DNA from: Bacillota bacterium
Lineage (GTDB): Bacteria > Bacillota > Clostridia > Peptostreptococcales > Anaerovoracaceae
Assembly: GCA_017445315.1 (NCBI GenBank)
Contig: JAFSUI010000025.1
Span: 1-51,429 of the forward strand
Direction of reading: 5' to 3'
Length of the DNA stretch: 51,429 nt
Shown: in pieces, positions 10,972 through 48,292 of the stretch
Layout of the letters: each line of letters starts with the position of its first letter
How positions within the stretch are numbered: the stretch's first letter is position 1
Made by a program: the position numbers and the translations under genes
Notes under the pieces: model-generated
Seen by the model: only the letters and a program-made list of their open reading frames with translations
The model's database searches: none
What the model was told of the DNA's origin: nothing

Positions 10972-11916
10972 ATGAGTTTTTCTAGTGAAGTGAAAAATGA
11001 ATTGGCGCGGATTGAGCCGGAGAAGAACTGCTGTCAGCTGGCCGAGATTTCCGGGTTCATAAGAACTGCCGGAAGTCTCAGGCTAGAGGGTGGCGGGAAA
11101 TTTGGTATTGTTGTATCTACGAGCGATCCTGCAATAGCAAGGCATTATAAGAAGCTCATCAAGAACTATTTTGACACGCCGACCGAGCTAGAAATCGAGG
11201 ATAACGGTAATCTCAAGAAGGGACGCAAATATATTCTCAGAATAGGACCTGAGAATAAGAGTGAGCAGATACTTAGAGAGGTCGGTATCCTGATGCTTCG
11301 CAAGGGAAACGATTTTTTCTCAGATGGTATCTATGAGGGGCTGGTCAGGTCCAAATGCTGCAAAAAGGCATACCTAAGAGGTGTGTTTTTGGGAAGCGGC
11401 ACGGTTTCGGATCCTGCAAGAGCCTATCATCTAGAATTCATCTGTAGCACCAAGGTCCTCGCAAAGGATCTATGCAAGCTTATCAATACCTTTGTTGATC
11501 TTTCGGCAAAGATGGTAGAGAGAAAGGGTAAATACGTGGTCTATATGAAGAAGGCTGCGTATATAAGCGATACGCTCGCGATTATGGGTGCGCATTCGCA
11601 CGTGCTGGCGCTTGAGGATGTTCTGATAAGAAAGCAGATGCGTGGCGAGGCTGCAAGGATGACCAATTGCGACAGTGCAAATACGGATAGAATCCTGGAC
11701 GCCGCGGGTATGCAGATAGAGGCGATTAATAAGCTTAAAGCCGCGGGGAGGTTTGATCAGCTCTCGCATAAGCTCAGGGAAATTGCCGCGCTCAGGGAGA
11801 ATAACCCTGAGGCAAGCCTTGTGGAACTGGGGGAGATGCTGGACCCACCGCTCAAGAAGTCGGGTGTGAACAATCGTTTAAAAAAGCTGCTTGAGGCAGC
11901 CTCAGAATTGGGATAA
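10972..11916 (+). CDS. whiA: DNA-binding protein WhiA
   Basis: A DNA-binding protein of 314 aa needed for sporulation control in actinomycetes and for division and chromosome segregation in Bacillus. The N-terminal half matches the degenerate LAGLIDADG-like fold (MSFSSEVKNELARI, FIRTAGSL, YLRGVFLGSGTVSDP). The C-terminal part is a helix-turn-helix domain (LVELGEMLDPPLKKSGVNNRLKKL). It starts 24 nt after the BKACE gene and probably shares its transcript. No separate terminator is evident before the next promoter. Confidence 0.95.
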   Translation: MSFSSEVKNELARIEPEKNCCQLAEISGFIRTAGSLRLEGGGKFGIVVSTSDPAIARHYKKLIKNYFDTPTELEIEDNGNLKKGRKYILRIGPENKSEQILREVGILMLRKGNDFFSDGIYEGLVRSKCCKKAYLRGVFLGSGTVSDPARAYHLEFICSTKVLAKDLCKLINTFVDLSAKMVERKGKYVVYMKKAAYISDTLAIMGAHSHVLALEDVLIRKQMRGEAARMTNCDSANTDRILDAAGMQIEAINKLKAAGRFDQLSHKLREIAALRENNPEASLVELGEMLDPPLKKSGVNNRLKKLLEAASELG

Positions 11917-11955
11917 AAAAGACTGCACTTGAGGTGATTTTTCAGAAGAAAAGAA

Positions 11956-11984
11956 TTGCCGAGAGGGCATATTTGTGGTAGAAT
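11956..11984 (+). promoter_or_regulatory. Promoter of the V-ATPase operon
   Basis: TTGCCG (11956-11961) and TAGAAT (11979-11984) are separated by exactly 17 bp. Transcription would begin near 11991 and leave an unusually long leader of about 265 nt before the first gene. Confidence 0.6.
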
Positions 11985-11990
11985 ATTCGG

Positions 11991-12255
11991 CAAAGGTTAA
12001 TTTTTGACTAAGGAGAATGAGAGATTGGTCGAGAATGCCATCAGACGTGCGGACATGGGTTAAAACAGTAGCCACACGCTAGTTTTTTATATATCTATTG
12101 CCGCGAAAAAACGGACTTGGATGCTCTCGTGAATGATTTCTCATCATGCTCTTTTTGGTGAGAAACGGCCACTAGAGCATTTTCTATTTTATCACCTTTT
12201 TTAGTTATTATTTAGCTTTTTATTTCAGTAAGAATTCCATATAAAGGAGGTGCCT
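11991..12255 (+). ncRNA. Long leader RNA of the V-ATPase operon, candidate riboswitch
   Basis: The gap between whiA and the V-ATPase genes has no ORF. It has a promoter at its 5' end, a G-rich segment with possible pairing (CGTGCGG at about 12045 with CCACACG at about 12072) followed by a T-run (12083-12088), and then a long terminator-like hairpin. This layout, an upstream possible ligand-binding part plus a switchable terminator, is that of a riboswitch. The c-subunit downstream looks Na+-coupled and Na+-responsive riboswitches are known upstream of Na+-handling genes, so Na+ is the first ligand to test. I did not recognise a defined aptamer consensus, so the class is unproven. Confidence 0.45.
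12121..12190 (+). terminator. Switchable terminator-like hairpin in the V-ATPase leader
   Basis: Outer stem 12121-12131 pairs with 12170-12180 (11 bp, one mismatch). The inner stem 12137-12145 pairs with 12157-12165 (9 bp), and the structure is followed by TTTTCTATTTT. The seven bases ATGCTCT of the left arm occur again inside the apical loop (12146-12152), so the right arm AGAGCAT has two alternative partners. That is typical of an expression platform. Confidence 0.55.
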
Positions 12256-12819
12256 ATGGAATTACAGATTCAAGATCTAGTTTCCTCTATTCGCAAAGAT
12301 GGTTTAGAGGCGGTGAATGCTGAAGCGGAATCTATCATTGCAGAGGCAAAGAAAAAAGCCGAATCTATAGTCAACAGCGCAAAGGCTGAGGCTCAACAGT
12401 TTAAGGATGCGGCAGAAAAAGAAATCGCTATCCTTAAGGAGAGCGCCGTAGTTAGTGCAGAGCAGGCAAAGAGAGACGCTGTCCTGGCTTTTAAGACAGA
12501 AATCCAGGGTGAATTTGAAAAGATTCTTTCTGCCAATGTGAGCAAGCAGCTTTCGGGTGAAGGACTCGGCAAACTGATCCGCGCCGCAGTAACCGGTGAG
12601 AATGTTGCAGATTATGCTGCAGAAGTATCAGAGGTAAGTGAAGCGCTTAAGAAAGAGCTCGCTGAAGAAATCAAGAATGGACTAGAAATCAGACCGACCA
12701 AGGGCGTTCAGCATGGATTCCGCCTTGCGGCCAAAGATGGTTCAGGCTATTTCGATTGTTCAGATGATGGAATCATGGAGATGCTGATGCCATACTTCAG
12801 AGAACTGGACTTCCAGTAA
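12256..12819 (+). CDS. V-type ATPase subunit E (peripheral stalk)
   Basis: Peripheral-stalk subunit that links the catalytic A3B3 head to the membrane part. The first 100 residues form a long Ala/Glu/Lys-rich coiled coil (AEAESIIAEAKKKAESI and onward). The C-terminal half is a small globular domain ending YFRELDFQ. Length 187 aa fits subunit E of the spirochaete/Bacteroidetes-type operon. An in-frame GTG 6 nt upstream lies inside the AAAGGAGGTG ribosome site, so the ATG at 12256 is the start. It is the first gene of a tightly packed seven-gene operon; the next gene begins 13 nt later. Confidence 0.85.
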   Translation: MELQIQDLVSSIRKDGLEAVNAEAESIIAEAKKKAESIVNSAKAEAQQFKDAAEKEIAILKESAVVSAEQAKRDAVLAFKTEIQGEFEKILSANVSKQLSGEGLGKLIRAAVTGENVADYAAEVSEVSEALKKELAEEIKNGLEIRPTKGVQHGFRLAAKDGSGYFDCSDDGIMEMLMPYFRELDFQ

Positions 12820-15108: not shown

Positions 15109-16404
15109 ATGCAAAAGATATATACAAAGATAGAATCAATAGTAGGTAACGTAGTTACCGTACGCGCGGAGGGCGTCAGGAACGGCGACCTTGCGCTTGT
15201 TGGCGACAGCTATGCCAACGTAATAAAACTGGATAAGGACATGGTTTCTCTCCAGGTATTTGCGGGCGCACAGGGCGTAAGCACAACTGACCCCGTTAGA
15301 TTCCTCGGAAGACCTATGATGGTATCCTTCTCCGATCATCTTCTCGGCCGTATCTTTGACGGTGCGGGAGTTCCGAGAGATAACGGACCGGCTCTTACAG
15401 AGAATATGATTCCGATCGGTGGACCATCATTTAACCCGGCAAAGCGTATTCTTCCATCAAAGATGATACGTACCGGTATTCCGATGATTGACGTATTCAA
15501 TACCTTGGTAGAGAGCCAGAAGCTTCCTATCTTCTCCATCTCCGGAGAACCATATAACCAGCTTCTCTCAAGAATCGCCATGCAGGCAGAAGTTGATGTA
15601 ATCATCTTGGGCGGCATGGGTCTTAAATACGACGACTATATGGAATTCCGTGACACACTTGAAAAGGGTGGCGCTATGAGCCATACAGTAATGTTCATTC
15701 ATACTGCTGCAGACCCAATCGTAGAGTGCACACTGGTTCCTGATATGTCGCTTGCGGTAGCCGAACAGTTTGCTCTTGAAGGTAAGCGTGTACTCGTACT
15801 CCTTACCGATATGACGAACTTTGCGGATGCCCAGAAAGAAATGGCAATCACGATGGAGCAGGTTCCATCCAACCGTGGATACCCCGGAGATCTCTACAGC
15901 TGCCTAGCATCTCGCTACGAGAAGGCAGTAGATATAGAGGGTGCCGGTTCTATCACAATCCTCGGCGTTACAACAATGCCGGGTGATGACGTAACTCACC
16001 CAGTTCCGGATAATACAGGCTATATCACAGAAGGTCAGTATTATCTGAAGAACGGTCACATAGAGCCATTCGGATCGCTCTCTCGTCTAAAACAGAACGT
16101 AAACGGAAAGACGAGAAACGACCACCGTGCTCTGATGGATGGTATGATTCGTCTCTACGCTCAGTACAATGAGTCCTTGGAAAAGAGATCCATGGGATTC
16201 AACATGACTGAGTGGGATGACAAGCTTCTGAAATACGGTGAATTATTCGAGTCAAAGCTTATGGATCTTTCAGTAAACATTCCTTTGGAAGAAGCACTGG
16301 ACCTTGGATGGGATATCCTTGCTGAGTGCTTTGAACCAAATGAAACAGGTCTTCAGACCGCACTGATCAACGAGAGATGGCCGAATAAGCAAGCGTTAAG
16401 TTAA
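15109..16404 (+). CDS. ntpB: V-type ATPase subunit B
   Basis: Non-catalytic nucleotide-binding partner of subunit A, 431 aa. The canonical P-loop is replaced by [15 protein letters not shown] (about 143-157), as expected for B subunits. Other landmarks are [50 protein letters not shown] and [17 protein letters not shown]. Length is slightly short compared with about 460 aa in enterococci, in keeping with the spirochaete/Bacteroidetes-type B subunits. GGAGG precedes the ATG. Confidence 0.95.
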
Positions 16405-16416
16405 AAGGAGCGGTTC

Positions 16417-17028
16417 ATGGCTATCAAACTCACAAAGAATGAACTGAAGAAGCAGAAGGACAACCTAAAACAGTTCCAACGCTACCTTCCGACACTGCAG
16501 CTAAAAAAGCAGCAGCTCCAGTCGGTAATCATGAAGGTAAGAAGTGAGCTGGAGGAGAAGGAATCCGAACGCATTCAGATGATTGGTGATTTGGACGATT
16601 GGATAGCTGTTTTCGCAGAAAATGAAATCTTTGATGAAGAAAAGAGGCTTGACCAACTTGTTCAGCCGGACACGGTAGTCTGCGAGGATGAAAATATCGC
16701 CGGTGTAACCGTTCCTTCATTCAAGGAGCTGACGTTCAAAGATATCAATTACGATGTGGATGACTATCCGCTCTGGGTTGATACTGCAGTCTTCAAGCTT
16801 CGTGATATTGCCACGCTGGACGCTCTTTGCTCGACACTCAAGAAACAGACAGAGCTTTTGGAATCGGAACTTAGGACAACTTCGCAGAGAGTAAACCTCT
16901 TTGAGAAGGTCAAGATTCCTGAAGCAAAGGAGAACATCAGAGTTATCCAAGTCTATCTTGGGGATCAGCAGACAGCGGCCGTTGTACGAGGCAAGATATC
17001 GAAGAAGAAGCTGGAGGAGGTGAAGTGA
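16417..17028 (+). CDS. ntpD: V-type ATPase subunit D (central rotor)
   Basis: Central rotor shaft of 203 aa. N- and C-terminal helices (residues 1-60 and about 130-200) are rich in Lys, Glu and Leu and would form the antiparallel coiled coil that turns inside the A3B3 head. The middle section (about 75-125) is the globular part. No F subunit gene accompanies it. The start has AAAGGAG upstream. It ends 1 nt before subunit I, so translation is coupled. Confidence 0.88.
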   Translation: MAIKLTKNELKKQKDNLKQFQRYLPTLQLKKQQLQSVIMKVRSELEEKESERIQMIGDLDDWIAVFAENEIFDEEKRLDQLVQPDTVVCEDENIAGVTVPSFKELTFKDINYDVDDYPLWVDTAVFKLRDIATLDALCSTLKKQTELLESELRTTSQRVNLFEKVKIPEAKENIRVIQVYLGDQQTAAVVRGKISKKKLEEVK

Positions 17029-48096: not shown

Positions 48097-48106
48097 TTCA
48101 TAGAAC

Positions 48107-48240
48107 CCTTATCAAGAGAGGCGGAGGGAATAGGCCCTACGATGCCCGGCAACCTATGCGCACGGCAAACGCCACTGGCAAAGCTATCGCAAAAGGTGCC
48201 ACATCCTACGGAGGAGCAACGGCTCTTTCGAAAGATGAGG
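48107..48240 (+). ncRNA. SAM-I (S-box) riboswitch aptamer
   Basis: The conserved core is plain: TTATCAAGAGAGGCGGAGGGA, TAGGCCC, then GATGCCCGGCAACC, and a later GGTGCC and TCC. P1 is CCTTATC (48107-48113) with GATGAGG (48234-48240). It binds S-adenosylmethionine and shuts off metK when SAM is plentiful through the terminator that follows. Confidence 0.95.
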
Positions 48241-48260
48241 AGTATGATCTAAGACATCAT

Positions 48261-48292
48261 GCCTTTTCTTGACGGTAAGAAAAGGCTTTTTT
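48261..48292 (+). terminator. Terminator of the SAM-I riboswitch
   Basis: GCCTTTTCTT (48261-48270) pairs with AAGAAAAGGC (48277-48286) around 6 nt and runs into TTTTTT. It is the expression platform; the segment 48234-48260 between aptamer and hairpin would supply the antiterminator. Confidence 0.9.

Follow-up and report, generated by a model that had tools for sequence, protein, structure and literature searches.

A narrowly spread, structured leader with a predicted start-codon hairpin precedes a V-type ATPase operon in a group of Clostridia

The V-type ATPase operon of a Bacillota bacterium of the family Anaerovoracaceae is preceded by a leader that is narrowly spread among its relatives and that combines a 5' block apparently under selection, a hairpin for which structure is the main support, and a predicted start-codon hairpin that is found in more genomes than the other two parts. 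From the conservation and the predicted structures we infer a promoter, a transcription start site, and a function. Our preferred reading, to which we assign a probability of about 0.4, is that the leader is clade-specific and regulates in cis, mainly once transcription is under way, through the stability of the mRNA and the initiation of subunit E translation. The evidence leans first towards control of the mRNA and its translation start, then towards transcription attenuation, and last towards a ligand-binding switch. Counting against the preferred reading, the leader is represented by three sequences only, two of which are nearly alike in the 5' block.

The window (the whole 51,429-nt stretch of DNA that was analysed) is contig C16 of the G000 genome (1.34 Mb, 77% complete). 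The operon has the gene order E, DUF2764, A, B, D, I, K and is preceded by whiA; DUF2764 occupies the same place in other bacterial V-ATPases. Its first gene, at 12256-12819 on the + strand, was assigned to subunit E by NF002424 with an E value of 7e-40, although the match falls short of the model's curated cut-off, and its protein gave no Pfam match. The region between whiA and subunit E (11917-12255) contained no genes, as the earlier note had stated. Of the 349 family genomes searched for subunit E, 70 gave a match, with none in G001 or G012, and the upstream DNA was examined for 62 of them (that of G017, G023, G029, G034, G218, G221, G305, and G308 was left out). The subunit E tree grouped G000, G004, G007, G005, G011, G008, and G010 with support of 94/93 (values rough per program); G006, which is absent from the tree, was counted as a core genome by its 91% identity over 81 residues. 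whiA lies directly upstream of the operon in G004 and G007 and, by eye, also in G005, G011, G008, G010, and G006.

Among the 62 family leaders inspected by eye, that of the window recurred only in G007 and G004, and most of the others differed from it, many of them being short. Conservation in orthologous leaders, which the earlier note had proposed to check, was thus found among these three genomes but not in most of the 62 leaders inspected. Two blocks were common to the three: a 63-nt 5' block (11986-12048, + strand), which begins at about the presumed transcription start, and a long hairpin. Four-fold degenerate sites in whiA, E, DUF2764, and a portion of A served as a neutral yardstick, and 215 of 409 (53%) in G007 and 196 of 397 (49%) in G004 were identical to the window (31-62% by gene). 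The 5' block was identical in 60 of 63 columns in G007 (95%) and 47 of 64 in G004 (73%), far above the synonymous sites, indicating that this block is under selection as judged by comparison of sequences. The corresponding values were 64 of 80 and 46 of 83 columns for the hairpin region, and 31 of 65 (48%) and 26 of 75 (35%) for the unconserved middle stretch (12049-12113, + strand). Because the hairpin sequence of G004 is near the neutral level, the case for the hairpin there rests on structure. None of 200 shuffles was as stable as the whole leader (11988-12255, z -3.97), and 2 of 200 were as stable as 12098-12205 (z -3.25). The earlier proposal of a structured leader before the operon was supported by these shuffle tests, and the conservation shows part of it to be under selection.

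The R1 search, scored with stricter filters, agreed with the inspection by eye. Five of the 349 family genomes matched at E <=0.1, of which three were accepted, each matching once and before this one operon only. The weak matches in G012 (0.044) and G122 (0.051) were rejected as they overlap the ribosome-binding sites of other genes, which we take to be biotin-carboxylase-like and glyceraldehyde-3-phosphate-dehydrogenase-like. An exact pattern of the 5' block found two stretches in genome_contigs, those of G007 and G004 (the window's own records were perhaps left out there), and none in viral_contigs. A different long leader was observed before the same operon in a sister genus, g14 (L027, L029, L035, and L042), where TTTGCGCA and GCGCAGAGGA boxes are conserved and a TGCGCA in these boxes can pair with itself; L027, L029, and L042 carry a long hairpin 63-65 nt before the ATG, L035 does not, and these leaders gave no Rfam match up to E 1. 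Among the family leaders examined, the operon is preceded by at least two long designs with no visible common sequence.

The only promoter listed in a scan of 11800-12400 was a candidate sigma-A promoter at 11956-11984 (+ strand), TTGCCG-17-TAGAAT with an extended -10 (TGG). It lies at the place given in the earlier note, and by eye an extended -10 box lies at the same place in G007 and G004; its match is 9 of 12 positions, however, and 1.2 sites as good are expected by chance in the scanned stretch. An inverted repeat, TTGCCGA...TCGGCAA (11956-11993), covers both the -35 box and the putative start site; it is kept in G007 (TTTGCCGAA...TTCGGCAAA), not in G004, and is a possible DNA operator. 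In addition, a stretch of 41 bases elsewhere in the genome (G000:C30:5800-5840, L002) was 83% identical to the promoter region (E 3.2e-5). It precedes a presumably nucleotidyltransferase-like gene, and the likeness is possibly a chance similarity between promoter-like sequences.

Two readings that would separate the leader from operon control can be weighed against these data. In one, an independent small RNA of ~195 nt (about 11989-12185) has its own promoter and a second promoter further down drives the operon. Promoter, structured body, and hairpin with U-rich tail would indeed form a self-contained transcription unit, but no promoter was found between 12190 and 12240, and by eye a TATAAT directly follows whiA in G005, G011, G008, and G006, which need none further down; we consider this the least probable of all the explanations. 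In the other, the hairpin at 12119 is neutral or stops transcripts that run on from the whiA operon, and expression of the ATPase operon is constitutive. The position of whiA directly upstream in G004 and G007, and by eye in five further genomes, agrees with such a housekeeping role, as do the differing and often short leaders of the family. This explanation is nevertheless clearly unlikely, since the presumed promoter precedes the hairpin, no other was listed in the scanned region, and the 5' block is conserved far above synonymous sites.

The three-species consensus fold of the 5' block is a stem-loop at 11989-12039 (+ strand) with 13 pairs, GGYA/UGCC (GGCA at 11989-11992 with UGCC at 12036-12039 in the window) and a 9-bp stem (UUUUUGACU at 12001-12009 with GGUCGAGAA at 12027-12035) around a purine-rich loop. 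Its pairs showed no double change among the three sequences, only one-sided changes and one break, and the fold was no stabler than shuffles (z -1.30 in G000, +0.32 in G007, and -0.07 in G004), implying that the block is conserved as sequence. The purine-rich apical loop with its closing U (12009-12026, + strand) contains UAAGGAG, of which AGGAGA (12011-12016) is invariant in the three species; we take UAAGGAG to be 7 nt complementary to the anti-Shine-Dalgarno end of 16S rRNA. Among the unpaired positions of the block, 23 of 37 were invariant, a count close to a two-way comparison since G000 and G007 are nearly identical here. By eye, a purine-rich stretch also lies about as far from the promoter in G011 and G006; R1 found no match in either. 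In these genomes (L009 and L081) the stretch is followed by a short MI[QK]D frame about 25-60 nt past the -10 box (by eye), which may be a leader peptide or what is left of a duplicated E start. A leader peptide starting from the purine loop itself was rejected, as the frames differ (~21 codons in G000, 11 in G007, and >50 in G004, by eye) and the Shine-Dalgarno spacing is too short.

The long nested hairpin lies at 12119-12182 (+ strand). Its outer stem has 9 + 3 pairs around one mismatch, including ATGCTCT/AGAGCAT and GTG/CAC, and its inner stem has 10 bp (12137-12146 with 12156-12165). No shuffle of 200 was as stable in G000 (z -4.82), and 0 and 1 of 200 were in G004 (z -4.15) and G007 (z -4.21). 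The nested hairpin that had been read from the sequence is thus present, as is the T-run after it, found here as the U-rich tail TTTTCTATTTT (12180-12190, + strand) with TTTT at the same place in all three species. In a hand alignment, the outer stem showed one double-sided change (T-A to C-G) and one change to T-G; in a MAFFT-based alignment, which we thought to be shifted at the outer stem, 2 of 22 pairs showed a double change and 8 of 22 were broken in at least one sequence. The suggested covariation check therefore gave one double change in the hairpin by hand alignment and none in the 5' block of the three sequences.

The earlier note had derived a switch from a duplicated heptamer. ATGCTCT does occur twice in the window, at 12121-12127 and 12146-12152, with the right arm AGAGCAT at 12174-12180. 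However, the loop copy is absent from G007 and G004, so the switch is not conserved, and the copy in the apical loop is probably a coincidence of the window's species.

Promoter, conserved 5' block, strong hairpin, and U-rich tail follow one another in that order in all three species, as would be expected of a transcription attenuator in which the hairpin ends most transcripts and a factor (a protein, a ribosome, or another signal) prevents this through the 5' block, perhaps with the 5' purine loop pairing with the left arm of the hairpin. We scored the hairpin with a d'Aubenton-Carafa-type terminator score (stem ends picked by hand). The terminator of a SAM riboswitch in the same window reached +10.2, whereas hairpin and tail scored -10.5 in the window's leader, -16.0 in that of G007, and -29.1 in that of G004, so that the 12119-12182 hairpin is a poor intrinsic terminator by score. 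This control riboswitch (48106-48286; 72.4 bits) has a 12/12 promoter and a strong terminator, and the gene after it reads like a SAM synthetase. A looser test for a hairpin plus a T-rich stretch was positive for 44 of the 61 family upstream regions examined, so that this pattern alone says little.

Pairing between the loop and the arm was examined as well. Within the remaining leader, the 5' loop paired best with the left side of the hairpin in all three species, and when leaders were cut at the T-run the outer stem had a probability of 0.96-1 in G000, 0.58-0.61 in G007, and 0 in G004, whose minimum-energy fold opens the usual hairpin by pairing the 5' loop with its left arm. That fold, on the other hand, makes another terminator-like hairpin before the T-run, with a score of +3.0. 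Moreover, the loop-arm pairing was no better than chance in any of the three, since, of 500 shuffles, 53 and 82 (G000), 176 and 234 (G007), and 31 and 52 (G004) were as good. The antiterminator was accordingly rejected as a finding and kept only within the attenuator reading, which we regard as unlikely on the whole.

The leader was compared with the 4227 models of Rfam 15, which include the Li+, c-di-AMP, and guanidine classes, and gave no match at the gathering score. Up to E 10, the region 11700-12400 gave three matches, all well short of the gathering score (13.7 of 40, 13.3 of 60, and 11.5 of 100) and of unrelated kinds, none of them a cation class. Twenty V-ATPase loci of relatives gave no match at gathering scores, and 13 loci, including those of G007 and G004, gave none up to E 1. 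The Na+-I riboswitch model RF03071 was found in 0 of 13 genomes of the genus (stricter filters) and in 8 of the 349 family genomes, 5 over the cut-off. The covariance-model search suggested in the earlier note thus found none of the Na+, c-di-AMP, Li+, and guanidine classes in the leader, and its hypothesis of a Na+ or other known cation sensor was not supported. By eye, no TRAP-, PyrR-, or T-box-like motif was seen in the leader, nor was a description of it recognised among the titles and abstract starts of the open-licence PubMed Central papers that text searches returned. The residue set that the earlier note attributed to the c-subunit is kept in an alignment: the K subunit gave no match to E. 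hirae NtpK at the default threshold and a weak one at E 0.013, in which the T-Q / Q / E positions, presumably the Na+-binding residues of the E. hirae ring, are kept.

The Na+ idea was reasonable in itself, because some clostridia and enterococci are reported to carry Na+-I riboswitches ahead of their V-type ATPase genes (PMC9337991). That precedent also speaks for a new riboswitch class, in which the 5' block, as aptamer, would bind an ion or metabolite linked to the energy or Na+ balance, as do the 23 of 37 invariant unpaired positions, which resemble a ligand-binding core although two of the three sequences are nearly identical. Against it stand the Rfam results, both at gathering score and up to E 1 in G007 and G004, the missing covarying double change in the 5' block, the unconserved heptamer duplicate, and the narrow spread (3 of 349 genomes, once each, before one operon). 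Riboswitch classes are usually widespread. A new class is therefore very unlikely, and equally slim are the chances that 11986-12048 is the aptamer of a previously undescribed riboswitch or protein-sensed leader of very narrow spread that reads an ion or energy state and acts on both the 12119 hairpin and the start-codon hairpin.

The most widely kept structure of the leader was a predicted stem in which the AUG of subunit E is buried, conserved in 7 of 8 core-genus genomes. Its left arm, AATTCCATA (12233-12241), contains ATTCCA, which is invariant in the 7 aligned core-genus genomes; the right arm, TATGGAATT (12255-12263), assigned from alignment and fold, contains the AUG; and the Shine-Dalgarno AAAGGAGGTG (12243-12252), between the arms, is partly paired in the predicted fold (all on the + strand). 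Of 60 loci tested, with G101 (L065) excluded for its incomplete gene start, 7 had a start-codon stem at the threshold of <=10/200 shuffles. G000, G004, G007, G005, G011, and G008 reached 0-6/200, and 1 of the 54 other family loci tested passed (L033, another genus, 8/200). In G006 the core 7 bp of the stem were present at 195/1000 shuffles, not significant alone, against 21/1000 for G000 in the same run. G010, inside the core clade, has no such stem, its left arm being absent, and G002, G003, and G009, which belong to the same genus and carry the operon, have none. The distance between the arms varied from 12 to 18 nt across the aligned genomes. Such variation is more in keeping with an RNA hairpin than with a DNA operator at the start codon, and the latter was considered less likely.

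Such a stem alone is not rare, as among 39 mechanically called genes of the window 4, subunit E included, reached <=10/200 shuffles and 2 (subunits E and D) reached <=2/200. At the start of subunit D (16372-16432), the AUG-burying pairing involves upstream DNA inside gene B (z -3.39, 2/200 shuffles) and would suit translational coupling.

When the region was folded with its flanks, the central pairs of the AUG stem had a probability of ~0.8-1 in G004, G007, G005, G011, and G008 (0.73 for the innermost pair of G008). The first two bases of GGAGG were predicted to be paired in G004, G007, G011, and G008 (0.86-0.95) and the last three in G005 (0.70-0.78), implying that the Shine-Dalgarno is only partly open. 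The AUG stem of the window itself had a probability of 0-0.09 because CACCTTTTTT (12193-12202, + strand) pairs with the Shine-Dalgarno. Over five lengths of this region, folds lacking the stem were better by 1.8-5.4 kcal/mol, with the Shine-Dalgarno blocked in them. By eye, G007 can partly form the CACCTTTTTT pairing and G004 cannot. The initiation site is thus predicted to be largely closed both in the AUG-stem fold and in the competing fold of the window.

According to the preferred reading, transcription would start near 11989, and the GGCA at the very beginning of the transcript would close the 5' stem-loop. Its purine loop, with a Shine-Dalgarno-like UAAGGAG and no well-placed start codon, may be a 5' stabiliser bound by a ribosome or a protein, although the conserved unpaired AGACG would be superfluous if the block were a stabiliser and nothing else. 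The strong mid-leader hairpin, whose structure is supported, would follow. A final stem, enclosing the partly paired Shine-Dalgarno between its arms, would bury the start codon of subunit E and may lower and gate initiation and so set the output of the operon. If this is true, these Clostridia control their V-type ATPase through its own mRNA, in a form that has been remodelled more than once, given that among the family leaders examined those of this operon diverge strongly from lineage to lineage. The results also illustrate how a riboswitch guessed from a single genome may depend on a repeat that is absent from its relatives.

The leader can be compared with several known systems. Na+-I riboswitches (DUF1646 motif, RF03071) likewise stand before V-type ATPase genes in certain clostridia and enterococci (PMC9337991), but the window showed no match to the model in 11700-12400 up to E 10. 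Attenuators with intrinsic terminators share the promoter, leader, hairpin, and U-rich tail before an operon, but here the terminator score is weak and the competing pairing is not significant. The MS2 replicase operator is a translational operator hairpin that buries a start codon. With such hairpins the leader shares an AUG in a stem, so that initiation would be hindered until the stem opens; it differs in that the Shine-Dalgarno lies between the arms and that the candidate hairpin has no known binding protein. Finally, the 5' mRNA stabilisers of B. subtilis and its relatives include the aprE leader stem-loop, the STAB-SD of cryIIIA, and a polypurine stabiliser (PMC3997798). The leader would share with them a presumed 5'-end stem and Shine-Dalgarno-like purines without a well-spaced start codon, and differs from these examples in that the purine stretch of the window lies inside a loop whose flanks are conserved as well.
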